Program-made: the position numbers and the translations under genes
Notes under the pieces: generated by a model
What the model saw: the letters and a program-made list of their open reading frames with translations, nothing else
Databases searched by the model: none
Told to the model about the DNA's origin: nothing
Source of the DNA: Macrolepiota albuminosa
Lineage: Eukaryota; Basidiomycota; Agaricomycetes; Agaricales; Agaricaceae
DNA length: 64,000 bases
Reading direction: 5' to 3'
Assembly: GCA_027475525.1 (NCBI GenBank)
Contig: JAMWFC010000114.1
Location: 810,580 to 874,579, forward strand
Part shown: positions 3,718-28,239 of the stretch, one piece after another
How positions within the stretch are numbered: the stretch's first letter is position 1
Layout of the letters: each line of letters starts with the position of its first letter

Positions 3718-4424
3718 GATATGGAGCTGCAGGGATGAGGCCGCGTTCAATCAGAGAGGCAGCAATTGTCTCGCTTCTCTAAAGCATGGGTACATCTAGA
3801 GGATAAGTTTCTGACAGACATCAGAAGGTTATAACCATATACAAAGAGTGTATAACTCACCAAATAAGTCAACAACCTGAATAACCCGTGTCTCCTGAAT
3901 TACTGCACTTTCACTCAAGGGAGCTGCAAGCGCCTCTCCTGACACTCCGCATGCTTTACTCCATCTCAAATATGCATCAACCATTGCATTCAATTGAGTG
4001 GTAAACCCAAGGTTTTGATGGATATTCACATCCCGACGGGCATGGTAGTCTTTTTGTCTTCTTCATGGCCGTAGCTCCTCTTCAAGAAGCTCTTGAAATT
4101 CTCCACCCGCATGACTCAGATTGATTGAGTCCTGGCCATTCATGACAGCGTCGATGTCAACCCAGTCTGTATTGTCTTGGTCTCGACTATTGTCTTTAGA
4201 AATGTCTTGAAGTTCATTGAGTAATTTTTGCCATTTTTCGTCCCATGCTAATGTTTTTAGTGAATACTTCAGACAACAAAATACAGAGAATATTATGCAC
4301 CTTCCTGATGTTCTCGTAGTTCCTTGTTCTGACGCACTTGGAATGCACGTAAGCCTGACCAACTGAGTGTTTGTACAGAATTTGAAGACTCTCCACCAAA
4401 GATCTTGAACTTTCCCTTGGTCGT
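3718..4424 (-). pseudogene. KDZ transposase N-terminal remnant
   Basis: On the minus strand an acidic leader with SHAGGEFQELLEEEL (about 4074-4140) is followed by a basic stretch (KDYHARRDV), then a segment around 3860-4000 with MVDAYLRWSKACG and IQVVDLF. After an intron (GTGAGT donor near 3876) comes ETYPLDVPML and then SETIAASLIERGLIPAAP near 3740-3780. From memory this order (SHAGGE leader, arginine-rich patch, AYL-W, VVDLF, RG-(I/Y)-P) is that of the N-terminal half of fungal KDZ transposases. A TGA sits at 4063-4065 in the arginine-rich patch. The catalytic half is missing because a gypsy element replaces it at 3717. The gene lies head-to-head with the TET/JBP gene to its right. Confidence 0.65.
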
Positions 4425-5391
4425 GTTGGGATGGCACGTAAGTATCCTGTTGCCTTTCCTTCTGGTCACTTCTAAGGGCCTGAGCAGGAAGAGTTACCCG
4501 GTGGTGGACAAGGATGGTAGAGTAATCACCGTTCTTGTAGGCCAGCTGCAGGACAACACCTACGGTGCCTCTGTCAAAGCTGCGTACAACACCATTATGC
4601 GTGGGGGTTTGGCTGCACACTTTCAACGAGACAAGATTTACCATCGCCACGGCACTTATCCCACCATCCATGTTGGCATTTCGCATGGCAAGGGGACCAT
4701 ACGGCCGGTGAAATTTGATAACGGCCAACATACTGCATTGGCTGACAGCCTTGTTGCTGACCCCAATATTCAACGCCTGGCAGCTTTCATGAGCGGTATG
4801 TATACCTACATAAACAATGTGTAAGCATATCCATCTGAATATCCATCTTTAGCTAGCTTTCAAGGGTGGGCTCCAAAGCTTTATAATTACTATTGCGAGC
4901 GCCTTGATTCTCTCCGCACCCATATGCCAACTCTATACCATATCTTTCCTCACAGCATTTTTCCAGCAGCAACGTTCAATATTGGCCCCAGAGTTTGGAC
5001 ATATCGTCACCGTGATGTTTTGAACTGTCCATTTGGGTGGTGTGGCATTCAGGCCCTTGGACAATTTAATCCAGCTAGAGGGGGCCACCTCATTTTCTGG
5101 GACCTCAGGATATATGTAGAGTTTCCTGCTAGATCCCTCATTCTTTTACCATCTGCTACGATTTCACATTCAAATATCCCTGTTCAAGCAGGAGATACTT
5201 GTGCCTCTTTTACTCAGTACTGTGCTGGTGGATTGTTTTGATATGTTGATAACAATTCTCGAACAGAGGGGGAGTATTGGGTGGAGGATCCTGCGGGGTA
5301 TGAGAAGATGTGTTTAGCAAAGGTATTGCATTGGGAAATGGGACTTAGTCTATTCAGTAAAATTGAAGATTTTAGAAGACCAGTTGTTTAG
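4425..5391 (+). pseudogene. TET/JBP-family 2OG-Fe(II) oxygenase, 5'-truncated copy 1
   Basis: Remaining exons are 4485-4795 and 4853-5391, separated by a 57-nt GT-AG intron. The first coding exon is deleted. The core double-stranded beta-helix is present: the His-x-Asp iron motif in WTYRHRDVLNCPFGW (His codon 5008-5010, Asp 5014-5016), then GGHLIFWDL, and the distal His in ATISHSNIPV (5167-5169). The family usually has Arg in the following ASFTQY segment to hold 2-oxoglutarate; here the codon is TGT (Cys, 5200-5202). A TGA at 5239-5241 interrupts the frame after AGGLF, where Arg is expected; about 49 further codons run to TAG at 5389-5391. This family oxidises 5-methylcytosine in fungal DNA. 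This copy cannot be functional. Confidence 0.85.
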
Positions 5392-5554
5392 CCTGGTGTT
5401 GTGAATGAATCATTTGGTTGTACTCAATTAACAAAATGTGAAAAGTGGTGCAGTCAAATGATTTGACAACATGCAATTTGGATGACCAAACACAAACTTG
5501 TATGTAAACCTTGAGCTCAATTTTGGTCTCTCATGGATAACTTTCACATAGAGA
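5392..5554. other. TET 3' flank, nothing recognised
   Basis: This AT-richer stretch follows the TET stop codon and lies outside the inverted-repeat homology. It is duplicated at 11133-11295. No gene or RNA is apparent. Confidence 0.5.
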
Positions 5555-6331
5555 CATCACAACGGTACGTGTCATATGTTGTACGGGAGCCCGCTTTGTG
5601 CTGTACCATACGTGTCCAGCGGAGTCCGCTACACTGGAGCGGAGCAGTCCCCACAGTGCCGTAGAATACAGAGCCGCGGACGTGTCACAATGTGCTGTAT
5701 GACACGGTCCAGTGGATCGATAAAAGGCAGGCACACACATGCGCATGCAGGCCCGGCGGATGCCAGCAGACACTAGCGGACGTCAATGTGCGTCAGCGGC
5801 CGCCGGCGGGCATCAGCACACGAGTGAAAACCTCCTCCATTGGCAGACTTCATGGCATGAATAAACCCTCCTCGAGGTTCCCCATTTCCCTCCCCTCTCC
5901 ATTCCTCCCCGCAATAACTCGAGGCTGCGTGTCTCCCCTTCCATCCTTTTCCCACCCCCGACGCCAGCATACGTCCACGAAAGGGCCCTGAAAATCTACG
6001 CAGGCCTATGCAAGCCACCAGCGGACATCCACGCAGACGTATGTCGACGGACTCAAACCTACGCGGGCCCTCCCAGGCCTGCGCAGGACACCAGCGGACA
6101 TCCACAGAGGCCTACGCAGGTCCACGGAGTCTGGTTGGACCAAGGAAAAAAGTAACTTCGTCTTGCCCGCCGTATGCCTGTGGGGGGAAATCGAACCCCC
6201 GGCCTTGGGAAAGCCTCCAGCAACGGAACGCACATTTAACCGTTGCACCACAGGTCCGTTACTAACGGATAGATTCAAAGGTCGGATAACACAATGAATG
6301 GATGCCCACCTATGTTTCCGCAGGTTCCTGT
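5555..6331 (+). repeat. Third copy of the outer part of the inverted arm
   Basis: Identical by eye to 11296-12072 and nearly reverse-complementary to the right arm up to 25006. It is dense in variants of AGCGGACATC and GACGTCAGCGG and contains the class II tRNA-like unit at 6175-6257. It ends at 6331 where the duplication stops. Confidence 0.85.
6175..6257 (-). other. tRNA-like unit with long variable arm
   Basis: Read on the minus strand, CCTGTGG near the start pairs with CCACAGG at the end (7 bp). The A-box-like stretch is TGGTGCAACGG and the B-box is GGTTCGATTTC inside a G-rich T-arm. A GGCTT...AAGGCC hairpin stands where class II tRNAs have their variable arm. A possible anticodon loop ATTGCTG would give UGC, but that stem is weak. 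It is more likely a tRNA-derived repeat than a working tRNA. Confidence 0.4.
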
Positions 6332-6769
6332 GGTTATCAGGTTACTTATTTCGCCCCACTTATGCTCTGTTAAGCTGGACTCTGCACACTTGATATTCAG
6401 GGTGGCTATTTTCAGGGCTCCTCTCTGTGGCGTTTTTGTTCTCTGTGCCTGCATTCACGCTTGGGTGTTAGGTGTTGCATTGCACATTCTTTCCATTGGT
6501 CTGCTATGACCATACCCAGTGTTTCCAGGATTGTCCCCAGGTGTGGAATTCTGTGTATTTCTGACTGTTCTGGCTCATCCCCATTGTTCTGGGTCAGACA
6601 CTTCTGTCATGTCTTCTGCAGTATTTGTGTCTGCTATGGCTCGCTCGGCCTGTCTCATTGTGGGCTCCTGCCTCCGTAACTCCGGCGTGGGTCATTAGAG
6701 GGCTGAACCTATACACTCAGCGCGCATGGATGACAGGGTATCCGGCTTTGTCACTGCTATTCTTGTTGT
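6332..6769. other. No feature recognised
   Basis: Sequence between the end of the duplicated block and the family X gene. Short open frames here have no recognisable domain. Confidence 0.5.
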
Positions 6770-7691
6770 GAGTTGGTGAGGAAGTCAGATAAGAACATCA
6801 CCTACTTCGATTCTCTAGGCAGGCGTACATCTCAAACTTGGCCAGAACATCGGTGTAGTCTAGCCTCAAGACCTCTGAAAAGAACCTCATGACAGTATCA
6901 TCTGAAGTGGCAGTAAAGGTGGTGGTGGTATCTTCGGTGTGACCTCAGGAAAAGAAAGCAAATGAATGAACACCTGTACGAAGAAAAAGGTTTCTCATCT
7001 GCACCATAGGTCAGTGATGGAGAAAGACGTGTAAGATGAGACCATTCCACCTCTGACGTGATTGCCTTGATGTTTTGGTGTGCGTCAATAGCCGAAGCAT
7101 GATTGCTGCAATGCAAACCCTGCAATTTGAGGGCACGATGTTCAGCAAGATTATCAATAAGTTCTTTCTGGTGTTGCTTGCTCATCTTTGAAGGGTCCAA
7201 CTCTGGATCGTTGTTGACATGCTGTTGGATATCTTTGAGTTTCAAATGATATCCAGAAGCACGACCTGACATTGTAAGATCATGAGATGAGGAAGTAAGT
7301 CACTGGAATAAAGCTCACCTTCATTTAACACAGTGGCCTTATAGTGAGTGATTGTATTCATAAGCGACGGGCAACGTGCTGATGCGTAGTTTGAACTGTG
7401 AACTATCATCTTCTTGACGCGTTCCTGGTCTACCAAAAAGCGCTCTGCCGTCTGTTTAATAAACTCCTCCTGGTCGGCAAGATATTTTGAGACGGCTTCT
7501 CGAACAAGATCAAGGTTTTCCTTTGTGTTCTTCTTGAGAAGGGTGTGAGTACCCATTGATGCGTCAGACTGTGAGCTTGACTTGGAGAGACGAAGACGCT
7601 TGGGTTGAACAGGTCTGTCAGGATTACGAGAAGCCCAAGTCATGGATTCGGACCCGAGATCATCATTGAATTGGACAGAACTAGGCATCAC
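6770..7691 (-). pseudogene. Family X hypothetical protein (basidiomycete repeat-associated), left copy
   Basis: Exon 1 (7691-7319) encodes a segment with QSDASMGTHTLLKKNTKENL and FLVDQERVKKMI. A 53-nt intron (7266-7318) joins it to an exon from 7265 with LKDIQQHV, SKQHQKELIDNL and ASAIDAHQNIKAI. The last exon (about 6965-6790) reads EDTTTTFTATSDDTVMRFF and LDYTDVLAKFEMYACLENR. It resembles hypothetical proteins that I recall as common in Agaricomycete genomes, of unknown function. There is no catalytic motif; the C-terminus of the intact relative is lysine-rich. A TGA replaces the Trp codon found in the relative at 26482-28209. It is divergent from gene Y, with about 285 bp between the coding parts. 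Confidence 0.6.
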
Positions 7692-7976
7692 GTCTGTAAT
7701 GTACTGGCTTCTTTGGTGTTCTCCAGTGCTTGTTGATTGTCAACCTGATGTATGAGCATGGAAGCAGTCACGTGTGGTTCAGACTTTGTGTTGAAACCAT
7801 TCTCTGTCTAACTTTCGTTACACTTTCCTTCTCTTTCCCTTTCGTTACTCTTTCCTTCTCTCTTCTTGCATCTGCTTCCCTTTTGGATTCTGAGTACAGA
7901 TGCATTATTCAACCAAGAGTGCGTTTTTTAAGCCATCTATGTATGTGATTTAATTTACTTCTTTCACTCTATCAGG

Positions 7977-8937
7977 GTCTACGTCGTCGACTCCTCGACA
8001 AGTATCTAGTACCACAGGTTCAGCAAAAACTAAGAGCATCAATGAACCTCTTACAAACCTTGACGATGTCTTTGCATCAGCCAGGGTACAGCATCTGCAT
8101 GGAAGGCCAGATATCTTTGAGCCTGATGACCCCACATTATGGAAGAAAGTTGCCTACGTTGTGTATCGTGGGCGTAAAACCGGTATATTTGAGACATGGT
8201 AAGCATTTTTTTCAAAACTTATTCTTACTTTGCCTATGTAACCGCTTGAACAGGCCCGCTGCCGCACAGCAGATTCATGACCTTCCTGGAGGAAAGAAGG
8301 GCTGGCTTCAAGGCTACTACAGCTATGACGCCGCCATCAAAGCATGGGAACATGCTATAGCAAATGACCTAGTAACTGAGATCAACGAACCACCTGCAAA
8401 TGTATCAAACGGCCCCTTTCACCCTTCTAAGTCTCACCCTTGCCGAGGTCTTTCTCAACGCTGCCAAGAAATGCCCAATGGACATCAAACGCACTCTTCA
8501 TCTCCACCCCCTCAACTTGCCGAGGTCTTTCTCAACGCTGCCAAGAAATGCCCAATGGACATCAAACGCACTCTTCATCTCCACCCCCTCAACTATCTGC
8601 CTCGAAAAAATACCAAGTCCACGTCTCCTCACCTTGCTCAATCCTGGTTCCTTCTCTGCCCAATGGACATCAAACGCACTCTTCATCTCCACCCCCTCAA
8701 CTATCTGCCTCGAAAAAATACCAAGTCCACGTCTCCTCACCTCGCTCAACCCCGGTTCCTTCTCATCATCGGCAGCCTGCGCCTGTATCAGATGATGAGG
8801 ACATGTTTTTGTCTGACTCAGATGACTCCATTGCATCAGTTCCATCCATGACTGCATGTTTTTGTTGTACACCCACATCCTCAGTAGCTCCTCTTCAAGA
8901 AGCTCTTGAAATTCTCCACCCGCATGACTCAGATTGA
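7977..8937 (+). CDS. Family Y protein with viroplasmin/RNase H1 N-terminal-like domain, left copy (probably partial)
   Basis: The exon from 7977 (after an acceptor AG) reads VFASARVQHLHGRPDIFEP, then VAYVVYRGRKTGIFETW. An intron at 8199-8253 follows, then HDLPGGKKGWLQGYYSYDAA and IKAWEHAIANDL. The pattern Y-V-V-x-R-G-x-x-x-G-I-(F/Y)-x-x-W...G...G(Y/F)x(S/T)...A..AW is that of the small nucleic-acid-binding domain at the N-terminus of RNase H1 and in caulimovirus viroplasmin. The serine/proline-rich tail is interrupted by a 77-bp duplication (8439-8592) and holds an in-frame 108-bp repeat (about 8549-8765). Homology to Y ends near 8884, where the KDZ remnant begins, so the last codons before TGA at 8935 are probably foreign. 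The N-terminal exon was not found. Confidence 0.55.
8439..8592. repeat. 77-bp tandem duplication
   Basis: Units 8439-8515 and 8516-8592. Removing one unit makes the family Y frame upstream continuous with the serine-rich tail downstream. Confidence 0.95.
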
Positions 8938-9444
8938 TTGAGTCCTGGCCATTCATGACAGCGTCGATGTCAACCCAGTCTGTATTGTCTTGGTCTCGAC
9001 TATTGTCTTTAGAAATGTCTTGAAGTTCATTGAGTAATTTTTGCCATTTTTCGTCCCATGCTAATGTTTTTAGTGAATACTTCAGACAACAAAATACAGA
9101 GAATATTATGCACCTTCCTGATGTTCTCGTAGTTCCTTGTTCTGACGCACTTGGAATGCACGTAAGCCTGACCAACTGAGTGTTTGTACAGAATTTGAAG
9201 ACTCTCCACCAAAGATCTTGAACTTTCCCTTGGTCGTTTTTCGTTGGTGGAGCATGGATACAGTGCCACGGTACTGGTTACTACCAGCCACAGTTTTCAG
9301 ACATGTGATCACACACGACGTGTCTTCCATGTGATCATGAAAAGTTTTCACTTGTTTGCGACTATTCTGCCCCTCGATATTGTGTAACACACTTGGTGAG
9401 TGGTTTGCTTTCTGCTGCTCACCGCCTCCCTCTCTACAGCACAC
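8884..9444 (-). pseudogene. KDZ transposase N-terminal remnant, second copy
   Basis: The part 8884-9237 is the same sequence as 4071-4424. Here the upstream exon also survives (about 9120-9400, minus), reading through GGESSNSVQTLSWSG and VRQNKELREHQEG, and is joined across a short intron to AWDEKWQKLLNELQDIS and SHAGGEFQELLEEEL. At 8884 the gene ends abruptly against family Y sequence. It is head-to-head with the TET gene that starts near 9610. Confidence 0.5.
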
Positions 9445-9609
9445 TTGGTTCCTTTAGGGATCACCCCTGGGACCAAGAAAACAAGTGCGCTGTTGAGTTT
9501 GAGACAGCAAGCAGCCAGTCATGTTTATTTGTGCAATCTATTGATTATGGTCTTTGCAGGGTCTGCAACTGCAACATTTTGCATGCGTTCAGTCAGTACC
9601 TTGCCATTC

Positions 9610-11132
9610 ATGATACTTAAACTTACTCCACTGCCGCAGACACGTTCAGGTGCCGTATTTTCACCCTATGATCTCATTTCTATCTACTGCTTGGACAGTG
9701 TCGACTTCCCCACCCTCCTCCGCAACTCCCTGGCGGACGAGGCCACCTGCTTCGAGGATATTGAAACATATGACCACCCACGACGCTCTTTTTCACCAAT
9801 GCCGGCCCCTGACATAGAACAATTGCTGCCACGTATGCCGACACCCATGCTGGATGAGGGACCAACGCTCCCGTGTCTTTGTACCATGACCCTCCATGAC
9901 CAAACGCCCTTTCATAGCACCAACCGTTGCCACGTCAAACAGCACAAAAAACGTGCAGAACACATTGCCAAGGAAGGACACGTCCCACACAAACGGACCA
10001 TAGAACGTTATCAGTATGACGCCCTGCCCATCTACACTGATCTCAATACTATGTCCCTTCCCGTTGCCAAGGGCGCTTATCATGCCAAGAATGGCGGAAG
10101 TAGGCGTGGAGACAAGAAGGCTTGGACGCCGGAGGAGCTTGCTGCAGAGGGGTTATCGCTTGTTCGTTGGGATGGCACGTAAGTATCCTGTTGCCTTTCC
10201 TTCTGGTCACTTCTAAGGGCCTGAGCAGGAAGAGTTACCCGGTGGTGGACAAGGATGGTAGAGTAATCACCGTTCTTGTAGGCCAGCTGCAGGACAACAC
10301 CTACGGTGCCTCTGTCAAAGCTGCGTACAACACCATTATGCGTGGGGGTTTGGCTGCACACTTTCAACGAGACAAGATTTACCATCGCCACGGCACTTAT
10401 CCCACCATCCATGTTGGCATTTCGCATGGCAAGGGGACCATACGGCCGGTGAAATTTGATAACGGCCAACATACTGCATTGGCTGACAGCCTTGTTGCTG
10501 ACCCCAATATTCAACGCCTGGCAGCTTTCATGAGCGGTATGTATACCTACATAAACAATGTGTAAGCATATCCATCTGAATATCCATCTTTAGCTAGCTT
10601 TCAAGGGTGGGCTCCAAAGCTTTATAATTACTATTGCGAGCGCCTTGATTCTCTCCGCACCCATATGCCAACTCTATACCATATCTTTCCTCACAGCATT
10701 TTTCCAGCAGCAACGTTCAATATTGGCCCCAGAGTTTGGACATATCGTCACCGTGATGTTTTGAACTGTCCATTTGGGTGGTGTGGCATTCAGGCCCTTG
10801 GACAATTTAATCCAGCTAGAGGGGGCCACCTCATTTTCTGGGACCTCAGGATATATGTAGAGTTTCCTGCTAGATCCCTCATTCTTTTACCATCTGCTAC
10901 GATTTCACATTCAAATATCCCTGTTCAAGCAGGAGATACTTGTGCCTCTTTTACTCAGTACTGTGCTGGTGGATTGTTTTGATATGTTGATAACAATTCT
11001 CGAACAGAGGGGGAGTATTGGGTGGAGGATCCTGCGGGGTATGAGAAGATGTGTTTAGCAAAGGTATTGCATTGGGAAATGGGACTTAGTCTATTCAGTA
11101 AAATTGAAGATTTTAGAAGACCAGTTGTTTAG
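9610..11132 (+). pseudogene. TET/JBP-family 2OG-Fe(II) dioxygenase (predicted 5-methylcytosine oxidase), copy 2
   Basis: Exons 9610-10178, 10226-10536 and 10594-11132 sum to 1419 nt, a multiple of three (472 residues with one internal stop). The introns are 47 and 57 nt, GT-AG. The ATG at 9610 is a guess; an upstream exon is possible. Exon 1 carries basic stretches (KQHKKRAEHIAKEGHVPHKR) and ends in EELAAEGLSLVRWDG. Exon 2 has VDKDGRVITVLVGQ. Exon 3 holds the oxygenase core: YRHRDVLNCPFGWCGIQALG (iron-binding His and Asp), FWDLRIYVEFPARSLILLPS and SHSNIPV (second His). The expected 2OG-binding Arg is Cys (TGT, 10941-10943) and TGA replaces a likely CGA at 10980-10982, about 49 codons before the TAG. 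Family members act on 5-methylcytosine in the nucleus. Confidence 0.85.
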
Positions 11133-11915
11133 CCTGGTGTTGTGAATGAATCATTTGGTTGTACTCAATTAACAAAATGTGAAAAGTGGTGCAGTCAAAT
11201 GATTTGACAACATGCAATTTGGATGACCAAACACAAACTTGTATGTAAACCTTGAGCTCAATTTTGGTCTCTCATGGATAACTTTCACATAGAGACATCA
11301 CAACGGTACGTGTCATATGTTGTACGGGAGCCCGCTTTGTGCTGTACCATACGTGTCCAGCGGAGTCCGCTACACTGGAGCGGAGCAGTCCCCACAGTGC
11401 CGTAGAATACAGAGCCGCGGACGTGTCACAATGTGCTGTATGACACGGTCCAGTGGATCGATAAAAGGCAGGCACACACATGCGCATGCAGGCCCGGCGG
11501 ATGCCAGCAGACACTAGCGGACGTCAATGTGCGTCAGCGGCCGCCGGCGGGCATCAGCACACGAGTGAAAACCTCCTCCATTGGCAGACTTCATGGCATG
11601 AATAAACCCTCCTCGAGGTTCCCCATTTCCCTCCCCTCTCCATTCCTCCCCGCAATAACTCGAGGCTGCGTGTCTCCCCTTCCATCCTTTTCCCACCCCC
11701 GACGCCAGCATACGTCCACGAAAGGGCCCTGAAAATCTACGCAGGCCTATGCAAGCCACCAGCGGACATCCACGCAGACGTATGTCGACGGACTCAAACC
11801 TACGCGGGCCCTCCCAGGCCTGCGCAGGACACCAGCGGACATCCACAGAGGCCTACGCAGGTCCACGGAGTCTGGTTGGACCAAGGAAAAAAGTAACTTC
11901 GTCTTGCCCGCCGTA

Positions 11916-11998
11916 TGCCTGTGGGGGGAAATCGAACCCCCGGCCTTGGGAAAGCCTCCAGCAACGGAACGCACATTTAACCGTTGCACCACAGGTCC
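11916..11998 (-). other. tRNA-like unit with long variable arm, second copy
   Basis: Exact duplicate by eye of 6175-6257, carried in the left inverted arm. Confidence 0.4.
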
Positions 11999-12169
11999 GT
12001 TACTAACGGATAGATTCAAAGGTCGGATAACACAATGAATGGATGCCCACCTATGTTTCCGCAGGTTCCTGTATGGATTTTTTGAGGTGGAAGGGGGGTG
12101 GCATACCTCCCAAAAAAAAAGAGTTTTCGTGGCCTGAAAGGGGTGTTGGCATCAGCAGCCATCAGCTGG

Positions 12170-12425
12170 CCATCAGCTGGCCATCAGCTGGCATCTATCG
12201 GAGTTCGTTGGCAGCCGTCGTGACCCGCTGGCATCCGTCAGCATCCGTCGGCATCCGTCGTGCATCCGTCGGCATCCACCGGATATGGCAGCCGTCGTGA
12301 CCCGCTGGCATCCGTCAGCATCCGTCGGCATCCGTCGTGCATCCGTCGGCATCCACCGGATATCTGCTGGTATCCGTCGGAATCCACGGGAATCCGTCAG
12401 CAACCCCCAGCATCGTCCAGCATCA
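12170..12425. repeat. GCATCCGTCG-type short repeats
   Basis: Many near-copies of a 10-mer GCATCCGTCG and of GGCCATCAGCT occur in succession, on the opposite strand as CGACGGATGC in the right arm at about 23960-24150. Dense short repeats just inside inverted ends are typical of transposase-binding subterminal repeats, but this role is inferred. They do not encode a convincing protein. Confidence 0.7.
12209..12362. repeat. 77-bp tandem duplication
   Basis: Units 12209-12285 and 12286-12362. The matching position in the right inverted arm (about 24000-24110) has a single copy. Confidence 0.95.
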
Positions 12426-12483
12426 AGGCGGGAGAGAAGGAAATGGGGTGCGTGGGTGTCCACCACATGGGGTGGCGTCTCAG

Positions 12484-12700
12484 AGAGCGTGGGGGGTGGC
12501 GGAAGAGGGATGGGGGTGGGGAGAAAGAGGAGGAAGGGGGAAGGGGAGGAGCGTGGGTGTCCGCTGGTACCCCAGCGGACGTCAGGTCAGGGGGGAGGAG
12601 GGAAGCGGGGTGCATGTGGTGGACGGGGGTGGCGTGTGAGGTAGTGTGGGGAGTGGAGAGGATGGCACTGGGGAGAAAGAGGGGGAAGGGCGGAAGAGGG
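12484..12700 (+). other. Purine-rich, G-rich tract
   Basis: The plus strand is almost free of pyrimidines for long runs, with many GGG and GGGG groups, and could form G-quadruplexes or triplex DNA. The same tract appears as C-rich sequence at about 23590-23930. Confidence 0.6.
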
Positions 12701-12716
12701 TGCGTGAGTGTCCGCT

Positions 12717-12738
12717 GTCCGCTGGCATGCCAGCGGAC
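12717..12738. repeat. 22-bp perfect palindrome
   Basis: GTCCGCTGGCATG followed by CCAGCGGAC reads the same on both strands. It recurs at 23553-23574 in the right arm. It may be a binding site for a dimeric protein such as the transposase. Confidence 0.85.
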
Positions 12739-12796
12739 GGTAGCAGACGGTAGCTGACGTCGGCATGTGAGCCAGCTGATGTCAGCGGTGCAACCA

Positions 12797-12872
12797 GTCC
12801 CAGTGGTTCAGTGGAATATTCATTTATTGATATTCAATATTGTGTACAGTGGTGGGTTCTACTCCTACTTCA
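12797..12872 (+). other. tRNA-Gly-like unit
   Basis: A-box-like AGTGGTTCAGTGGAATATT and a T-arm-like GTGGGTTCTACTCC. It belongs to the GGAATATT family of tRNA-like units in this window and is mirrored in the right arm near 23355-23432. Confidence 0.4.
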
Positions 12873-17941: not shown

Positions 17942-18015
17942 ACAGGTCAAGTTTGTTACACTATTAGGAGCAAAGCAGCCGTGCCGTGTACATGCCGTTG
18001 CAACAATACCAGTAA

Positions 18016-18959: not shown

Positions 18960-20825
18960 GCCCGTCCCCTTGGGCCAGGGAGAGGGTCCTCGGCAGGGAC
19001 TGGGACGGAAGATGGTTGAGGGGGTGACGGAGATGTTCGTGCGGGAGTTGTCCCTGAGGATGTTTGTTGAAGCGGGGATGGAGCGACGGTGAGAGCGGAT
19101 AAGTCAGCGGCGTGATGGGATTGGTCAGTGGCGAGGGCAGAGGTGTCATCAGTGGGAACGGATATGTCAGCAGTGGCAGGGGATTGGTCAGCGATGGGGT
19201 CAGGAGTGGTTTCTTCCTCTTCAACACAGTGGGAACGGATATGTCAGCAGTGGCAGGGGATTGGTCAGCGATGGGGTCAGGAGTGGTTTCTTCCTCTTCA
19301 ACGATGGGTCCAAGTCCACTGTGCCCTGTTGGATGCACTGCCACATCATCCTGAGCTGACGGACTGGAGGGACAGGTAGAGATGTGAAGTTGATTCTGCA
19401 AAGTGTCAACCACACCCCAAATATTGCGGATCTGCTCTTCCATCTGACGGATACGTCCGGCGTGGTCTTCAAGTGTCTCACCCACAAGAGAAACATTCGT
19501 TTGCAGGGTTTCTATGCGGCCACCGAGCGTGTTGACCTGAGTCTGGTAGCGACGGAAGAAGTCCTCAATACGCGGTAACCAGCTCACCTCAGCCATGACA
19601 AACCCGTCCCGCACCTGCTCCCCAACATTCCGCAATGCTTCCTGGAACCCATTCTCCATCCTGTCCAAATGGCTCTCCACCCCTGCCATTACACCAGCCA
19701 CAATGTCCTCACTGTGACTAGACTCCATTGCCCGCTCCTTGCCCTTTCCCTTGACCGGAAGAGGGTCCGCTGGGCGGTTGGAGGTCGACGGTTGGGATGG
19801 ACGGACGGACGGTTTTGATGGTCCCGCGATTGGACTGGTTGGTTCATCTGCTAACTATTGGTTAGCTATTTGAGCAGGAAAAGAGTTTCATACCGTCATC
19901 ACTCTCAATAATTGTCACTGACTTCTTTCTCAGTGGTTTTTTCCCCTTTCCCTTGTTGCTGGGCTTGACGGTTTTCTTGACAATCGTCAGGCTGCATGTT
20001 CGTTTGCGAATGAGCCAGCAGGGATCGCATGCGGTGCCGCCCTTTGTCCTGACACACTGTAGCCGCTTACTTGCGCAATATTGGCAAGGGGGGTTGATGT
20101 GCTGACCCTCGCGACGAGGTGCTGTCCTCAGATACCTGCCCAACAGCATCCCTCCAGTAATTTCCCCCTTTGGTATTCTGCCCTCTTGTTCTTCCTCTTC
20201 CTCTTCCTCTTCATCCTCATCCTCATCCTCATCCTCCTGCTCCTTCTGTCAACAATAGGTACCAGGAGGAGGTTGACCAATATAGGTCACCCGTTTTGGC
20301 TTCTTGGGATTTGGCGACGGACCAGACAAATCTCCTGCCGCTGGAGGACTCGGTTGTTTTCTCTTCTTCAGAATCGGTGACGGACCAGACGAATCTCCTG
20401 CTGCTGGCCTATGACCTATCCGGTCTTCTCGTGCCGGTGCCGTCGACGGACCAGCCTCAGTCGTTCTTTGCCCCCACTTGGTTCCTCCCCCCTTCCGCTC
20501 CTCTGGGTCCATTTCTTTGCAGCGTCCTTCAACCGCCTGGTCATATCCTCGTCAGAAAGCTTGCTCTGGAGTAGCGGGATAACTTTGTTGATGAAACTTC
20601 TCCTGGCATCAAGGAGGAGTTTCTTGTCATTCTTGATGTCCCTAACCTTGAACCACATGTCAATCTACAGGACGACTATTAGTGCATGTCTATTAGGCAG
20701 GAGTGCTTGTATCTTACCAGGTCCTTCTGCTGTGCTTTGAGTTGTCGCAGGTCTCCTCTGAGAGCAAGGTATAATACTCGAACATCCGCGTCAACGACCC
20801 GTTGGTGGAGTTCTTCGTTAGACAT
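18960..20825 (-). CDS. Zinc-cluster and coiled-coil protein upstream of the KDZ transposase (function unknown)
   Basis: Starts at ATG 20823-20825 with MSNEELHQRVVDADVRVLYL. A GT-AG intron (20665-20717) leads to IDMWFKVRDIKNDKKLLLDA. A proline/serine- and acid-rich linker includes a poly-Asp/Glu run (20190-20240). Then come eight or so cysteines in the pattern C-x2-C-x6-C...C-x2-C-x6-C (PCQYCASKRLQC and ACDPCWLIRKRTC, about 19990-20080), resembling a zinc-binding cluster. After another short intron a coiled coil (about 19690-19400) with RIEDFFRRYQTQVNTLGGRI and a Ser/Pro/Thr-rich tail follow. I recall similar proteins as frequent, unnamed Agaricomycete repeats. The tail is frameshifted by a 77-bp duplication at 19150-19303 and runs into the KDZ gene with no clear stop. 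DNA binding is an inference from the cysteine pattern only. Confidence 0.5.
19150..19303. repeat. 77-bp tandem duplication
   Basis: Units 19150-19226 and 19227-19303 in the Ser/Pro/Thr-rich tail of the coiled-coil gene. Confidence 0.95.
20190..20246. repeat. Trinucleotide-rich microsatellite in coding sequence
   Basis: CTT/CCT then CAT/CCT hexamers repeat on the plus strand. The minus strand encodes alternating Asp/Glu runs in the coiled-coil gene. Confidence 0.75.
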
Positions 20826-21021
20826 GGCGGATGGAGGATTAAAGAAACGGACGAGAACTTTACATGAAGCAAGTTCTGAAAATAGATATCATGTGACCCT
20901 GTTTAAATTACAAAAGAAGTTTGATTTATTGCTTGACAAAACCTTACTTTGTTTATCTTACAGTTTAGTAAATAACAATTAGCTAAGCAGGTCAAAAATT
21001 GCAGAGGTCCTAATGTTTATT

Positions 21022-21100
21022 GCACTAAGCAGGAGTCGAACCCACCTACTGCAACACACAATAAACACCAATAGATAATATTCCACTAGACCATCAATGC
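21022..21100 (-). other. tRNA-Gly-like unit with paired acceptor stem
   Basis: The 5' end GCATTGA pairs over 7 positions (two G-U) with the 3' end TTAGTGC. The A-box-like stretch is TGGTCTAGTGG and the T-arm GTGGG-TTCGACT-CCTGC pairs with wobbles. The anticodon region is longer than in a standard tRNA, so an intron or a degenerate arm is likely. Confidence 0.5.
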
Positions 21101-21236
21101 TTACTGTATACTGCTATAGTCTAAATAGATATCATGTCACTATGTTTAAATTAGGACCTTACTTTGTTTATTATACTGTGTAGTAAATAACAATTAGCTA
21201 AGCAGGTCAAAAATTGCAAACGTTTTAATGTTCATT

Positions 21237-21315
21237 GCACCAAGCAGGAGTCGAACCCACCTACTGCAACACACAATGAAGACCAATAGATAATATTCCA
21301 CTAGATTATCGATGC
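21237..21315 (-). other. tRNA-Gly-like unit with paired acceptor stem
   Basis: GCATCGA pairs with TTGGTGC. Compared with 21022-21100 the fifth pair has changed from T-A to C-G, a compensated change. The T-arm is conserved. Confidence 0.5.
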
Positions 21316-21435
21316 TTACTGTACACTGCTATAGTCTAAATAGATATCATGTCACTATGTTTAAATTAGGACCTTACTTTGTTTATCATACTGTGTAGTA
21401 AATAACAATTAGCTAAAAACAGTGAGACGAAAATG

Positions 21436-21513
21436 CACTAGTAGGAATCGAACCCGTCTACTGCAAGACATAATAAAGACCAATGAATAATATTCCACTA
21501 GACCACCAATGCT
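21436..21513 (-). other. tRNA-Gly-like unit
   Basis: GCATTGGTGGTCTAGTGG at the 5' end is very close to tRNA-Gly. Six acceptor pairs form with the 3' TAGTGC. The B-box is GGGTTCGATTCC. Confidence 0.5.
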
Positions 21514-21595
21514 TACTTTACATTGCTATGATGTAAATAAACATCAGTCTATTCTTCTGTGTGTGGTCAAAAATATTTGAGTTCGATCTCAATGC

Positions 21596-21672
21596 ACTAG
21601 GGGGAGTCGAACCCACCTAATGCAAGATACAAGGAATACCAATGAGAAATATTCCACTACACGACAGACGCT
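21596..21672 (-). other. tRNA-like unit, degenerate
   Basis: GCGTCTGTCGTGTAGTGG at the 5' end and GTGGGTTCGACTCC in the T-arm. Only part of the acceptor stem pairs. Confidence 0.4.
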
Positions 21673-21887
21673 TCATGTATAATGCTATGGTGTAAATCAA
21701 TATCAGTCCAATATTCCGCTACAAACCATGGTTTTCCTCTTTCCTGTATACTTCTATGGTGTAAATAAATATCAGTCTAATATTGTCAATTCAATACAGA
21801 TGCACCAGTTGCAGTAAAATCTCTATCCGTTCAAATTCTGTATGGGTCCGTTTGTGCACTACATGAACACCGTCCTGACTTGTAGCA

Positions 21888-21968
21888 AGCGCCTGTGGTA
21901 CAATGGAATATTCATCAATTGATATTTCATATTGTGCACAAGAAGTGGGTTTGACTCCCACTAGTTCA
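21888..21968 (+). other. tRNA-Gly-like unit
   Basis: Mirror copy of 13258-13335, starting GCGCCTGTGGTACAATGG and containing GTGGGTTTGACTCCCAC in the T-arm. Confidence 0.45.
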
Positions 21969-22002
21969 CATTATATAATAGCAGCAGGCCGCTGACGTCC
22001 GC

Positions 22003-22988
22003 TGATGACGCCCAAATCGAGCTGGGCACTGCGTGGACTATCACTAGTGCAGCTACTTAGCCGATATAGCTTTGGGCGTGCTAAGTGTGTGAGAGAGTCC
22101 CGGACAGGTCCCAGAGAACACACGGTAGGCAAGAGGTTGGTGGCAAGGAAAGTGGATAATTGGAGGCACTTGCGTAAGGCTCCAAAATGTGGCTACAGGG
22201 CGCTAAAAGTCGCTAAGGGGGAGTGCTAAGAGCGTGGGAAAGTCGCTAAGAAAGGCGCTAAGAGGTGCGGGAAAGGGTCGCTAAGAGGCGCTAAGTGTTA
22301 GCACCTAGAACGTGATAATAAAAGGATGAGATTGCTTAGCGGATCTAAGCACGAAAGCCAAGCCGTAGTTGCAAGGCGCTAAAGAGAGAGAAATATAGAA
22401 AACTAGAGCAGAGTCCCCTTGCTTGACACGGTCAACAAGAGGTAGTCTGTTGCGTATGGAGACCAAAATGTTGGGATACGATCCCTACTGCCAAATTGAT
22501 TCCCCGTACTACTAACAAAAAGTAGGTATTTATAGTAAAGAAAGTTAGCCGACGCTAAGAGGTTAAGCGCCGCTAGAGGGTGGTGAACTGATAAAAATGT
22601 AAGTAAATGTGGTGAATTGAATTGTATAGTAAAAAAGGTCCATAATGATGCTGTCACGGAAATACTTCATCATTTTCCTTTGTAAGCGCTGCCACTGGCT
22701 AAGAGCATTATGCCAGATTGACTGATGCCAAGTGTCTGTGTAAATGGGTAGCCTCGGAGTGCAAGTGGCAAGGTGCGGCGAGGTGTCAATAGTGGTGTGA
22801 AGAATAAGTGGTGCCATAAAAAGTGGTCTGAGAGTAATTGGAGTCTGTAGCTGCGAGTTATTAGTGTAAAAATATGAGAAAAATAGCGCTGGAAGCGCTA
22901 GAGCGTGGCGCTTCTGGTGGTACTAGTGGGCCTATATGAGGTGCGGGTATTGGTGCGATCTGTAGCCAGCCACGATGCAGGCTCATCA
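22003..22988. mobile_element. Solo LTR-like insertion in the right inverted arm
   Basis: The left arm shows the uninterrupted target. The insert begins TGATGACGCC and ends GGCTCATCA (TG...CA with short inverted ends) and is flanked by CCGC on both sides (21999-22002 and 22989-22992), as expected for a 4-bp target duplication. The interior has many GCGCTAAG motifs and no long coding frame. It is most likely a solo LTR of a retrotransposon not otherwise present here; a short-TIR DNA element with a 5-bp CCGCT duplication is the alternative. Confidence 0.65.
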
Positions 22989-23388
22989 CCGCTAGCGTCA
23001 TGAATTTGATCTGTTGAAAACTCCAAAGATTTCTGCAGCGGCATAAGATGGACGAGTTCGTGCATGTGTTCATTCCAGTGCTCATGACAAGTTGATGATG
23101 CACTGTGGCTGACTACCTCTGTGCTGATCTTTGTAAAAAAAGTAGTCAGCCCTGGTGTATCGTCACTTGTCATGAGCGCTGGAATGATCTCATGTGTCAA
23201 CTCCTCCATCCTATCTCGCTTCAGTAATTCCTAGAGTTTTGGTCAGATCCACTACCACAGGCGCATACTCCAGGTCAGTACAATGTATATGTAGAGCAAA
23301 AATGCACCCATATAAAAACACAGCATTAGTCCCTGTTAAGGTGAAGTAGGAGTAGAACCCACCACTGTACACAATATTGAATATCAAT

Positions 23389-23542
23389 AAATGAATATTC
23401 CACTGAACCACTGGGACTGGTTGCACCGCTGACATCAGCTGGCTCACATGCCGACGTCAGCTACCAAATGAATATTCCACTGAACCACTGGGACTGGTTG
23501 CACCGCTGACATCAGCTGGCTCACATGCCGACGTCAGCTACC
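23389..23542. repeat. 77-bp tandem duplication
   Basis: Units 23389-23465 and 23466-23542. The left arm has this sequence once (about 12770-12840). Confidence 0.96.
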
Positions 23543-23552
23543 ATCCGCTACC

Positions 23553-23574
23553 GTCCGCTGGCATGCCAGCGGAC
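23553..23574. repeat. 22-bp perfect palindrome, right-arm copy
   Basis: Same palindrome as 12717-12738. Confidence 0.85.
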
Positions 23575-23652
23575 AGCAGACACTCACGCACCCTCTTCCG
23601 CCCTTCCCCCTCTTTCTCCCCAGTGCCATCCTCTCCACTCCCCACACTACCT

Positions 23653-23806
23653 CACATGCCACCCCCGTCCACCACATGCACCCCGCTTCCCTCCTCCCCC
23701 CTGACCTGACGTCCGACGTCTGCTACGTCCACATGCCACCCCCGTCCACCACATGCACCCCGCTTCCCTCCTCCCCCCTGACCTGACGTCCGACGTCTGC
23801 TACGTC
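23653..23806. repeat. 77-bp tandem duplication
   Basis: Units 23653-23729 and 23730-23806 in the C-rich tract. It is single-copy in the left arm. Confidence 0.96.
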
Positions 23807-24303
23807 TGCTGGGGTACCAGCGGACACCCACGCTCCTCCCCTTCCCCCTTCCCCCTCTTTCTCCCCACCCCCATCCCTCTTCCGCCACCCCCCACGCTCT
23901 CTGAGACGCCACCCCATGCGGCGGACACCCACGCACCCCGTTTCCTTCTCTCCTGCCCTGATGCCGGATGATGCCGGGGGTTGCCGATGGATTCCCGTGG
24001 ATTCCGACGGATACCAGCGGATATCCGGTGGATGCCGACGGATGCACGACGGATGCCGACGGATGCTGACGGATGCCAGCGGGTCACGACGGCTGCCGAT
24101 GAACTCCGACGGATGCCAGCTGATGGCCAGCTGATGGCCAGCTGATAGCTGCTGATGCCAACGCCCCTTTCAGGCCACGAAAACTCTTTTGGGAGGTATG
24201 CCACCCCCCTTCCACCTCAAAAAATCCATACGGGAACCTGCGGAAACATAGGTGGGCATCCGTTCATTGTGTTATCCGACCTTTGAATCTATCCGTTAGT
24301 AAC

Positions 24304-24386
24304 GGACCTGTGGTGCAACGGTTAAATGTGCATTCCATTGCTGGAGGCTTTCCCAAGGCCGGGGGTTCGATTCCCCCCCACAGGCA
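24304..24386 (+). other. tRNA-like unit with long variable arm, right-arm copy
   Basis: Best-preserved copy: CCTGTGG pairs with CCACAGG immediately after the T-arm GGGGG-TTCGATT-CCCCC, and the B-box is GGTTCGATTCC. The anticodon stem remains weak (possible UGC loop). Confidence 0.45.
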
Positions 24387-25006
24387 TACGGTGGGCAAGA
24401 CGAAGTTACTTTTTTCCTTGGTCCAACCAGACTCCGTGGACCTGCGTAGGCCTCTGTGGATGTCCGCTGGTGTCCTGCGCAGGCCTGGGAGGGCCCGCGT
24501 AGGTTTGAGTCCGTCGACATACGTCTGCGTGGATGTCCGCTGGTGGCTTGCGTAGGCCTGCGTAGATTTTCAGGGCCCTTTCATGGACGTACGCTGGCGT
24601 CGGGGGTGGGAAAAGGATGGAAGGGGAGATGCGCAGCCTTGAGTTATTGTGGGGAGGAATGGAGAGGGGAGGGAAATGGGGAACCTCGAGGAGGGTTTAT
24701 TCATGCCATGAAGTCCGCCAATGGAGGAGGTTTTCACTCGTGTGCTGATGCCCGCCGGCGGCCGCTGATGCACATTGACGTCCGCTAGTGTCCGCTGGCA
24801 TCCGCCGGGCCTGCATGCGCATGTGTGTGCCTGCCTTTTATCGATCCACTGGACCGTGTCATACAGCACATTGTGACACGTCCGCGGCTCTGTATTCTAT
24901 GGCACTGTGGGGACTGCTCCGCTCCAGTGTAGCGGACTCCGCTGGACACGTATGGTACGGCACAAAGTGGGCTCCCGTACAACGTATGACATGTACCATT
25001 GTGATG

Positions 25007-25372
25007 CCCTACCCTGTAACTTTTGCTACACCTTGAAATGCTTAATCATACTGATCGAAAGCCATGCTTTTCTATTGTCCAATGATACCATTGGATAGTC
25101 ACAGGGGTCCTTCTAGCGTATCATATTGTATTTCAATGAATCTCAATTGAGTATGAACTAGTCATTTTGAAATGCAACTTGTTTTTCTTCTGATTTTGAC
25201 AAAGTCCTCAACTTCACTTTAAGAAATTGGTAAAATTCACAAAAGCAACTCAACAAGCAGCTCATGGACTCAAAACTATAGACTTGTAAGTACAAAAAAT
25301 TCATGTCAATGATGTATTAGAACGAAAAAAACTACAAAACACCAAAGCTACTGATTAAAATATGGATACAAG
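25007..25372. other. No gene recognised
   Basis: AT-rich spacer between the right inverted arm and family Y'. By symmetry with the left side a TET gene might be expected here; none is seen. Confidence 0.5.
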
Positions 25373-26399
25373 TCAGTCGCATGAAACCTCGCCTTCCATA
25401 TAACAGCGTGTAAAGATCATTGCTGCAGATGCCAATCCTGTAGTCCAAAAAAGTGCAGGGCTAGGGTGTTGACCAATGGCAGCGGCTGCAGCATTTCTAT
25501 GAATTAAAGATTAGTATACAAACAGGCAAAATTGACAAAAGTATGGACCATCCTTTGTAGATACCTGGCATCGCGCCTCGAACAACCACCCAATGACATT
25601 CTTCATCACCAATCTCTGTCTGAGTAGAATGCGTGGTCAAAGATGAACTGGCCTGAGAATGCATCAGGGATGTTGATGAAGAAGCCTTCAAAAAGGCAGA
25701 GCGCTTTGAAGACATGTTTGGCCACTTGATAGGCTCAATAAAGCCATCAGACAGGTACATATCGTTATCGTCAGTGGTGAATTTTACAGACTGTTGAGTG
25801 CTGAAGCCTCTGTAAGGTCTTGGAGACCGCTGATAAGATGGTAGAGAAGATAGATCATGATCGGTCAAATCATTGTTGTTGTCGCCTTGCTCGTATTGTA
25901 CTTGTGAAGTGGAAGATGATCTGAGAAGATGTTTTGATGCACTTGGAGTCGAGTCTTTGACGGCCTTTACCAAGTTATTTGCAAGAGCATGCTCCCATGC
26001 CTTATCAGCAGCTTTGCGGCTATAATAGCCCTGCACATATGCTACCTTTCTCCGTAGAGTCGGGTCATTTGGTTCAAAAATATCAGGCTTGCCACGTAAA
26101 TGTTCCTTCTTTGCTAGCTCAAATGCATCATCAAGCCTGAGATTGCTCATGTTGGGAATTTTAGTGTTCTTGCTCTTTGCCGGAGAAGCTGTAGAAGCTC
26201 CCAGTAATAAGTGACAAAAGAGACAAAAATTAGATAGACATACTAGGCGGAGACTAAGCCTGCTTACTCCGGGGAGTTGATTGTGTATCTGGTAGACTAA
26301 GAATAATGTTAGTGAATTGGGTGTGAAAATTTCCAAATAATATACCTTGTGTTGGGAGAGAATGCATTGTAAAGCAATAAGTAAAGGAGAGAGAGACAA
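25373..26399 (-). CDS. Family Y protein, right copy
   Basis: Read on the minus strand: RLDDAFELAKKEHLRGKPDIF and TLRRKVAYVQGYYSRKAADKAWEHALANNL match the left copy. A serine-rich middle follows, and then ECHWVVVRGAMPGIYKGW with the last exon from 25496 (GQHPSPALFWTTGLASAAM) ending in TGA at 25373-25375. The intron between them is about 50 nt. This copy keeps the W-V-V-x-R-G...G-I-Y core at its C-terminus, so the family may carry two such modules. The start is uncertain: ATG near 26148 (MSNLRLDD) or an upstream exon. It is divergent from family X', with under 100 bp between them. Confidence 0.5.
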
Positions 26400-26828
26400 A
26401 AATGAGAGAAGACAAGAGAAAGAAGAGGGAAAAAGAGAAAGGAAGAAAATGAAAATGAACTATTCGTCTTTAGAACGTTGATTGTTGAGAAACACTCATG
26501 TGATCTTGTTTGTTTCTCATGAACACTTGAAAAACACCGATAAATCTCACAAAGCCTTGACACTGTTTGACCCAATGCCAGGACTTGCAATTGATGCTGG
26601 GGCTGCTGCTTGGGCAGCATGTAATTCTGATCAACCTATTCAACTGCCACGTATACGTGCTTCTCAGCTTAATACACAATCTGATGCATCTATTGGTACC
26701 GGCACACTCTTGAAGAAGAACACAAAAGCAAACCTTGACTTAGTCCACGATGCTGTCTTTACATATCCCAAGAATCAAGATAAATTCATCAATGGACTGG
26801 CACAACAGTATCTGGTAGACAAAGAACG

Positions 26829-26982
26829 GGTCAAAAAGATGATAACTCATGGTTCCACTTATACTTCGATGCGTGGTCCCTCTCTGTCAAATGCTATATT
26901 TCATCGGTCAAAAAGATGATAACTCATGGTTCCACTTATACTTCGATGCGTGGTCCCTCTCTGTCAAATGCCATATTTCATC
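26829..26982. repeat. 77-bp tandem duplication
   Basis: Units 26829-26905 and 26906-26982 inside the first X' exon; one C/T difference. Confidence 0.96.
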
Positions 26983-27441
26983 ACAAGGCTAAAAAACTGA
27001 ATGAGGGTAAGTAAGCTTGTTTCTGTAGTCTTGTAAAGAAAACTTTACAACTTTCAGCCTGTGATCATGGTGAGCGTTTAATGCTCAAAGATATCCAAGA
27101 AAATATCAAAAATGACCCACAATTGGACGTGTTCAACATGACCAAGGAGCACAAGAAGGAACTTATTGATAAGCTTATAGAATATTGAACTCTTAAATCA
27201 CAAGGAATGCATTATAATAACCGTGCATCAGCTATTGATGCACATCAGAATATCAAGGCCATTATGCTTGAGGCAAGCTCATGTATTCTTTATATGAATT
27301 GATTACTCATAGACTAGTAATATAGATGAAGAATCTTTTTCTATGTACAGGTGTTCGTTCTTTTGCTTTCTTTTCCTGGAGCCATGTCAAAGACACCACT
27401 ACTACATTCACTGCCACTTCCGATGATACAGTAATGAAGTT

Positions 27442-27595
27442 TTTCCCTGAGGTTCTCAAGCTTGATTATGCAGATGTGCTTGCCAAGTTTGAGATGTACT
27501 CCTGTCTTGAAAACCGCCTTTCCCTGAGGTTCTCAAGCTTGATTATGCAGATGTGCTTGCCAAGTTTGAGATGTACTCCTGTCTTGAAAACCACC
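27442..27595. repeat. 77-bp tandem duplication
   Basis: Units 27442-27518 and 27519-27595 inside the X' exon encoding VLAKFEMYSCLEN, so that block appears twice. Confidence 0.96.
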
Positions 27596-28239
27596 ATATG
27601 TTTTATTGGCTTACTTTCTCATATCTAGCTGATGATGATGCAAGGTGTAATAAAACCAGAGACACTACTCTCAATTCATGCTGAGTGTACTGCCCTCATT
27701 TTGGATGGATTGCGCAAGTTTCAAATACTATGTACTTGTCCTTAGAGTCTAACTATCCAACAGATTTAATTCTTGGGAACAAGGCTATAAAAATGAGCTA
27801 CGTGAACTACAAGACAATAATTGTTGAGAAATATCATGTACATCTTGTCAGTTAGCCATCGCGGATAGTGTTTGGCAGTCCCTCAAATATTTCAACCATA
27901 GACAATGTTCGGCTTTTGCATTCCACCCTCAGCAATGGCCAGTGTAAGTGGATGTTTTTTATGGCAGAGGAACGGAAGGAACACAGTCAAAAGCTAGCAG
28001 AGGCGCATAATGCAGGGATCATCATTGGAAAGAAGAGGAAAGAACGTTCAGACAAGGGTAAACCAAGAACAAAGGGGAAAGGAGGACAATTGAAGAAGAA
28101 GAAGAAGACATCGCAGCTGCCTTCGGCATCCACAAACAAGAGTGTAGAGTTGGCTAATAATGAGGAGGGTGAGTCACCCAATGATGAGTCCGACAATGCA
28201 GACAACTAGACAATACTGTATGTTTCTTTTAATCATTCA

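Follow-up and report, generated by a model that had tools for sequence, protein, structure and literature searches.

Gene content of the locus

The window analysed here is the whole of a 64,000-nt stretch of the Macrolepiota albuminosa genome (assembly GCA_027475525.1, contig JAMWFC010000114.1, positions 810,580 to 874,579; C105:810580-874579 in our labelling). Its left part carries genes for transposases of the KDZ (Kyakuja/Zisupton/Dileera) superfamily, for a TET/JBP-type oxygenase (TET), for two further proteins, here called X and Y, and for a zinc-cluster protein, together with long inverted arms. The original prediction, made from the window sequence alone, had tentatively joined these parts into one large mobile unit controlling its own methylation. 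We find several nested elements instead: the window holds most of one transposon of about 10.5 kb, the outer element, stretched by insertions to 39 kb. From its sequence, the outer element is very probably a cut-and-paste transposon of the KDZ superfamily which carries a divergent KDZ-TET pair and a divergent X-Y pair in a fixed order, the window copy having been broken by nesting.

This reading draws on related copies on other contigs of the same genome (100.1 Mb, 129 contigs; labels such as C11, C45, C73, C102 and C106 denote these contigs). Genome searches listed 22 TET, 35 X, 37 Y and 130 outer-type KDZ matches, which were merged into 22, 25, 34 and 64 loci, respectively; all locus counts are among the matches listed, and absences are therefore soft. 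Sequence was fetched for ten loci (C11, C100, C102, C106, C45, C47, C73, C86, C89a and C89b). The best protein relatives were found in Lyophyllaceae (Termitomyces, Blastosporella, Tephrocybe, Tricholomella and Hypsizygus).

Ends, target duplications and empty sites of the outer element

Three copies (C11, C102 and C106) have the order terminal inverted repeat (TIR), KDZ, TET, X, Y, TIR, and the two divergent pairs always follow one another in this order. The outer KDZ protein contains the PF18758 catalytic domain above the family cut-off (5.2e-45 for the C11 exon), whereas its CxC1 match in C11 (0.0013) falls below the cut-off. The element terminates in CACCTGT(A/G)GCTACC (ends of C11 and C102, CACCTGTGGCTACC; a single C45 end, CACCTATAGCTACC), and its inverted repeats are about 340-500 bp long where measured (C11, C73 and C106), those of the C11 type being made of 181-bp tandem repeats. 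The C11 copy spans 10.5 kb (C11:805419-815906) and the C102 copy 10.75 kb (C102:499412-510164), both with inverted repeats of about 500 bp; comparison of C11, C100 and C102, with reading of the junctions, gave flanking 8-bp duplications of CTAGCAAC and GTCTTAAG, respectively. The 7.9-kb C45 copy is flanked by TTTGCCGT, and a scan of the ten loci for the end pattern added AGGACGAG for C106 and ATCTTATC for C73. In that scan 8-bp duplications were obtained at five of ten loci (5 of 1217 pairs, against 0.019 expected), and offset controls gave none in 12020. The left end of the window copy lies in the flank, at C105:800808 (position 208 of flanking sequence L029), and is preceded by TTAATCAA, the same 8 bp that follow its right end at window position 29390. 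Six outer copies, the window copy included, thus have perfect 8-bp duplications, and with TIRs and an 8-bp duplication the outer element is Zisupton-like in its terminal behaviour.

The original prediction had proposed mapping the ends against empty sites in related strains; such sites were present in the same genome, as paralogues of all three insertions tested. The joined C11 flanks run unbroken at C110:4904712 (240/240 identities), with many further copies; the joined flanks of the window copy have 40 listed matches that span the junction, at up to 91%, and those of C102 match C126:1796586 (92%). Read together, these junctions show the four genes enclosed together, and repeated insertion of outer copies with 8-bp duplications. 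The C11 copy itself sits in a multicopy repeat, which we take, from a sequence motif, to be probably Helitron-like. Two copies of about 2 kb on C81 (482900-485650 and 1039300-1042050) have the outer end repeats in inverted orientation and are probably non-autonomous derivatives of the outer element; because their left flanks look alike, a single insertion within a stretch that was later duplicated is likely for this pair.

Gene order across the genome

An outer-type KDZ gene lies within 8 kb of Y at 22 of 34 Y loci and in all 22 takes the same side and the strand opposite to Y, whereas uniform random placement, in which contig limits are ignored, gave a mean of 0.33 and a maximum of 3 such neighbours. 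X lies within 4 kb of Y at 23 of the Y loci and is divergent from it at every one, the two being 323-638 bp apart in 21 cases and 1001 and 3179 bp apart in the others; 19 of 25 X loci have an outer-type KDZ gene within 8 kb. The fixed geometry and the position within target duplications bear out the proposal that X and Y are transposon cargo. The association of TET is looser. TET is found within 4 kb of Y at 11 Y loci; ten of these share the same geometry, and only the left side of the window, which is rearranged, departs from it. An outer-type KDZ gene was listed within 8 kb of 8 and within 16 kb of 10 of the 22 TET loci. Viewed from the transposase, the 64 KDZ loci have Y within 10 kb in 22 cases, X within 10 kb in 19 and TET within 8 kb in 8. 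KDZ loci lacking the companion genes, with X/Y pairs mainly far from KDZ genes, had been named beforehand as evidence against the association; the former are common (42 of 64 have no Y within 10 kb), but the majority of Y loci are not remote from KDZ. The expectation that companions would recur at fixed positions across the assembly holds for X and Y and, less strictly, for TET; it fails for the zinc-cluster gene, treated below.

The TET gene and its loss

The TET/JBP core was recognized correctly at both places in the window, as homologues confirm, but the two copies are 99.8% duplicates, both with an in-frame stop at the point where C11 reads on. Neither single TET exons nor the joined C11 TET protein gave a Pfam or Protein Data Bank (PDB) match, and the identity therefore rests on homologues. 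Among 20 aligned relatives, presumably of the order Agaricales, four match Pfam Tet_JBP (best 3.4e-5), and a predicted model of one relative (P0014) has chains of CcTet, NgTET1, CMD1 and TET2 as its 26 best PDB matches. The C11 protein has HRD and SHSN, in keeping with the HxD...H iron ligands, and H346 and D348 are invariant in the 20 relatives, which is not the HxE arrangement of the PE type. No CcTET chain was obtained by sequence at E<=1 with either one sequence or a 20-sequence profile. On the Tet_JBP domain of its relatives, its HxD ligands and the predicted fold of P0014, the gene is assigned as a TET/JBP dioxygenase.

TET is missing from several copies. The 7.4-kb C73 element has both ends, is flanked by an 8-bp duplication and carries KDZ, X and Y, yet a full-length query against the ten fetched loci gave no TET match there at 1e-4. 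Only the two ends of the TET query match at C86 and C89a (residues 5-73 and 395-491) and at C89b (34-73 and 395-491), so that HRD (367) is missing in all three, and C45 has lost the TET core through a deletion of about 305 bp relative to C47. The remaining TET-less loci were recognized with a 138-residue query and from the KDZ-Y spacing, which is 3150-3921 bp in 13 of 15 loci without TET (5626 and 6579 bp in the others) and 4078-5615 bp in seven loci with it. Because the TET-less C73 copy has inserted, TET seems dispensable in an inserting copy, at least if it may be supplied from elsewhere.

Genes X and Y

The X protein joined from C102 exons matches PF01693, the RNase H1 hybrid-binding domain, with 34.7 bits against a cut-off of 21, and a related database protein (P0010) does so by itself with 31.5 bits. 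X thus shares PF01693 with RNase H1 N-terminal and Cauli_VI domain proteins; since Pfam reports nothing else in it, X appears to lack the RNase H catalytic domain. Domains of this type bind RNA:DNA hybrids, an activity that is predicted for X. In the right-hand X gene of the window, the 145 bp lost relative to C11 fall within the first hybrid-binding domain. For Y, no Pfam family was found in more than one of eight members and the best PDB profile match was 0.059.

Between subfamilies, synonymous sites are near or at saturation by the Nei-Gojobori method (dS 1.1 or more; dN 0.12-0.56), and the ratio of non-synonymous to synonymous rates (dN/dS), where dS was finite, does not exceed 0.35 in X or 0.18 in Y, values that are rough at saturation and involve approximate codon mapping by tblastn. 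Between subfamilies, purifying selection seems to act on both X and Y.

Several observations weigh against our interpretation of the outer element and its cargo. No outer-type KDZ gene was listed within 8 kb of 14 of the 22 TET loci or of 12 of the 34 Y loci, the latter including both Y genes of the window. Perfect 8-bp duplications were not found at C100, C47, C86, C89a and C89b, half of the loci scanned. Compared with the empty site L054, the left flank of the window copy has ten bases more, and alignments with further empty sites show several gaps at that flank. Y was matched to no known family; its predicted structure gave no match (best E 4.1), the model being poor (mean predicted local distance difference test score, pLDDT, of 48) and such matches meaningless, and the roles given to X and Y are conjectural. 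Finally, dN/dS between close copies is relaxed (0.27-1.6, one pair undefined), although higher ratios are expected of decaying copies.

The Y loci without a KDZ neighbour could indicate that X and Y are ordinary genes of the host, brought close to KDZ elements by segmental duplication. We consider this very unlikely, given the geometry of the 22 KDZ-Y pairs, the enclosure of X and Y by element ends and 8-bp duplications in differing target sequences, and synonymous sites near or at saturation between subfamilies. The relaxed ratios in close copies, together with functions that are only conjectured, would also suit a hitch-hiking pair, acquired a single time by an ancestral KDZ element and of no benefit to it, but its retention in the TET-less C73 copy and the selection seen between subfamilies make this improbable.

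The inner KDZ element and the zinc-cluster gene

The KDZ blocks on which the original prediction relied (MDGNF at 18236-18583, and YDIACQW and GEIIESLW at 17448-18124, all on the minus strand) are genuine, with Pfam matches to KDZ (8.7e-27 and 3.8e-10) and CxC2 (1.2e-15), but they belong to a second, inner element and not with TET, X and Y. The same is true of the long inverted arms, whose five longest blocks are 90-99% identical. These arms were considered as ends of the TET element and rejected, as they lie inside it. In C11 the bases corresponding to window positions 11285 and 25017 are adjacent.

Of 582 candidate arm matches, 40 were scored (96-100% identity), three in the window and 37 outside it. 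Six end pairs were fetched, which represent five distinct sites, the sixth having flanks identical to one of the five; all five have CA..TG ends and 7-bp duplications (GCTATTA, CTGACAT, GCTGTTA, CTGAGCC and TTGGATA). The spans of the six fetched pairs range from 5.6 to 16.8 kb, as in C67:192556-209335 and C114:4304665-4314791. The sequences point to a high-copy, Kyakuja-like family with very long inverted arms.

Sixteen of the best 30 of 151 zinc-cluster loci have an inner KDZ locus (best 55 of 151) within 8 kb and on the same strand, whereas only one, that of the window, has Y within 10 kb, which speaks against the zinc-cluster gene being cargo of the TET unit. The distance between the zinc-cluster gene and the KDZ core is 5.3-6.2 kb in 15 of the 16 pairs, with the window (2.0 kb) the odd one out. 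The split is not clean, as three of the best 55 inner KDZ loci (window, C89 and C14) have Y within 10 kb. At C14:1352735-1358165 and C89:2092784-2102808 the inner-type KDZ gene beside Y may reflect nested copies or a second association.

That all parts fall in one 25-kb stretch, bordered by arms resembling ends, had suggested a composite transposon of more than 24 kb in which KDZ, TET, two X/Y pairs and the zinc-cluster gene move together. We regard this as hardly tenable: C11 is continuous through both inner junctions, where the 7-bp duplication lies, the inner arm recurs 37 times outside the window with its own duplications at five of five sites, and the zinc-cluster gene accompanies the inner KDZ.

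State of the window copy

Relative to C11, the window copy of the outer element is interrupted three times (Table 1), and judged from its sequence it is dead, being split by a retrotransposon, by the inner element and by a rearranged stretch. The retrotransposon insert, of about 10.35 kb including a 100-N gap, has TG..CA ends and a 5-bp duplication (GATAT), and C11 is continuous there. No pair of long terminal repeats (LTRs) was found by self-BLAST; the LTR-type label is based on matches to zinc-knuckle and, weakly, to aspartyl-protease domains, on the ends and on the duplication. The KDZ N-terminal remnants noted head-to-head with both TET copies do align, at 96-97%, with the intact C11. X/Y pairs occur on both sides as described, but the left pair is a 2.2-kb fragment of another subfamily in which the order of Y and X is inverted, the right X is damaged, and the two Y genes are 57% identical. 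About 370 bp separate the duplicate of the inner element from this fragment.

Table 1. Features of the outer element and its insertions in the window
Feature	Position	Strand	Basis or comparison
Right part of probable LTR retrotransposon	1-3717	-	Inserted in outer KDZ gene; starts in L029
Outer KDZ, N-terminal part (CxC1-type)	3718-4435	-	95.8-96.7% to C11, C100, C102
TET copy 1, 3' part only, in-frame stop	4413-5388	+	99.8% duplicate of copy 2; motifs 4825-5238
Duplicate of first 787 bp of inner element, behind TET copy 1	5545-6331		Self-comparison
C45/C47-type subfamily fragment	6708-8883		95-98% to C45/C47; Y 94-95%
Y of fragment	from ~7739 down	-	
X of fragment	~7949-8850	+	
Outer KDZ, N-terminal part, second copy	8884-9277	-	Alignment, self-comparison
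TET copy 2 of outer element, in-frame stop at 10980	9547-11129	+	Motifs (10566-10979), C11 alignment
TAACTTT, left target duplication of inner element	11279-11285		C11 continuous across point
Inner KDZ element, CACATAGAGA...CTACCCTG, 7-bp duplication	11286-25016	-	Between TET and X
Left long inverted arm of inner element	11286-13492	+	Inverted-repeat comparison
Inner CxC2-type KDZ gene region, core 17448-18583	14644-19243	-	Frames cut by 77-bp duplications
Zinc-cluster open reading frame of inner family	19865-20248	-	Open frame, family association
Right long inverted arm of inner element	21732-25016	-	Inverted-repeat comparison
TAACTTT, right target duplication of inner element	25017-25023		Junction reading
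X of outer element, RNase H1 hybrid-binding type, 145-bp deletion	25379-26150	-	Limits by C11 alignment
Y of outer element, no family match	26571-28206	+	Start by C11 alignment
181-bp tandem subterminal repeats	28495-29237		Repeat comparison
Right TIR of outer element, ends ...CCACAGGTG	28891-29390	-	Partner L029:208-708 = C105:800808-801308
Right 8-bp target duplication TTAATCAA	29391-29398		Left copy directly before C105:800808

The window contains 19 exact 77-bp tandem duplications (for example at 8439, 12209, 15037, 17788, 36671 and 59199), and ten other 20-kb loci of the assembly contain 30, whereas by the same rule every other period between 30 and 159 together gave two in those ten loci. 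They are probably an assembler artefact that would harm gene models, since 77 is not divisible by three and reading frames are broken; we infer that they are unmerged contig overlaps from a k=77 assembly. The left TET duplicate may likewise be an assembly artefact. We give an even chance to the whole stretch from 4413 to 8883 (the TET/KDZ duplicate and the C47-type fragment) having arisen through assembly or haplotype joins, as the 99.7-99.8% identity of the duplicate stretches and the 77-bp duplications throughout the assembly would suggest; the junctions at 4413, 6331 and 8883, however, coincide with the start of none of the listed 77-bp duplications, and a very recent true duplication would look identical.

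Three further features lie to the right of the outer element: a Copia-type retrotransposon (32072-38730, minus) with gag, pre-integrase, SH3-like and RVT_2 pieces; a match to Terpene_syn_C_2, the C-terminal domain of terpene synthases (2.1e-15; 45343-46074, plus), amid transposons; and an RVT_1 reverse transcriptase piece (9.8e-14; 50526-51164, plus), with repeats nearby at 48.0, 53.8 and 55.8 kb.

Relation to known elements

Iyer et al. reportedly described TET-bearing KDZ transposons of fungi in 2014. The linkage invoked by the original prediction is established, TET-positive KDZ DNA transposons of fungi being treated by Kojima (2025; PMC12730594), whose main text is the basis of the comparisons that follow. 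The outer element resembles these in combining KDZ and TET/JBP in one DNA transposon of a mushroom fungus, and differs in having X and Y in a fixed order and 181-bp tandem repeats in its TIRs. There, Zisupton and the Dileera-type Zisupton-1_PGr are assigned 8-bp duplications. CcTET is called a close relative of the AG-type TET; the outer TET has HxD, and the sequence comparison, in which no CcTET chain matched, was with CcTET rather than with the AG sequences themselves. For Kyakuja, a 7-bp duplication and CA..TG termini are reported, as we find for the inner element in the window and at five distinct sites, but Kyakuja-1_LB and Kyakuja-2_LB have no TIRs; because of its 2-3-kb inverted arms, the inner element is termed Kyakuja-like only. 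Its window copy contains no TET match. TET-positive IS3EU families with an alpha-kinase (gene order conserved) and PHISTA families with a third protein are alike in having extra cargo, and differ in transposase, cargo and hosts, which are mostly rust fungi (PMC12730594).

The words 'viroplasmin', 'RNase H' and 'accessory' are absent from that main text, and the literature searched yielded no description of KDZ elements with an X/Y pair. X/Y cargo in a KDZ transposon thus appears unreported, while TET-bearing KDZ transposons are already known. The 12.2-kb helpo1.3 Helitron copy of Pleurotus ostreatus includes 10.7 kb of additional sequence bounded by TIRs; this holds capE, a viroplasmin gene of PF01693, and capF, a putative transposase gene, and was interpreted as Helitron gene capture (PMC4289320). 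Like the outer element, it has a PF01693 gene and a transposase between TIRs, the C11 copy too lies in a repeat that is probably Helitron-like, and by analogy the capture may be a nested KDZ-type element.

Possible roles of the cargo genes

How the four genes might work together can be stated as a working hypothesis. The KDZ protein would bind the end repeats and move the element, cut-and-paste being the mode expected from its family. TET, from its fold, may oxidize 5-methylcytosine or N6-methyladenine on DNA, perhaps that of the element itself, and so counter silencing. X, through its hybrid-binding domain and a second, similar stretch, could bind RNA:DNA hybrids, or duplexes of small RNAs, that arise on the element during its transcription, and might either shield the element or guide TET. 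Y is probably helical with a lysine/arginine-rich tail; this basic tail and its divergent pairing with X lead us to guess that it is a nuclear partner of X or KDZ. Since one copy that lacks TET but keeps X and Y has inserted, X and Y would stand nearer to the core of the element than TET. A three-part counter-silencing kit, in which TET acts against DNA methylation, X against an RNA-based layer and Y as nuclear partner, with the X/Y pair the more essential part, is a speculative proposal that we hold only tentatively.

Fungal TET genes have been discussed as tools by which transposons escape control. Here such a gene belongs to a unit that is bounded to the base, backed by empty sites, and to which two more conserved genes are added; and in the C73 copy, TET-less yet otherwise complete, what TET adds to such an element becomes directly testable within one genome.

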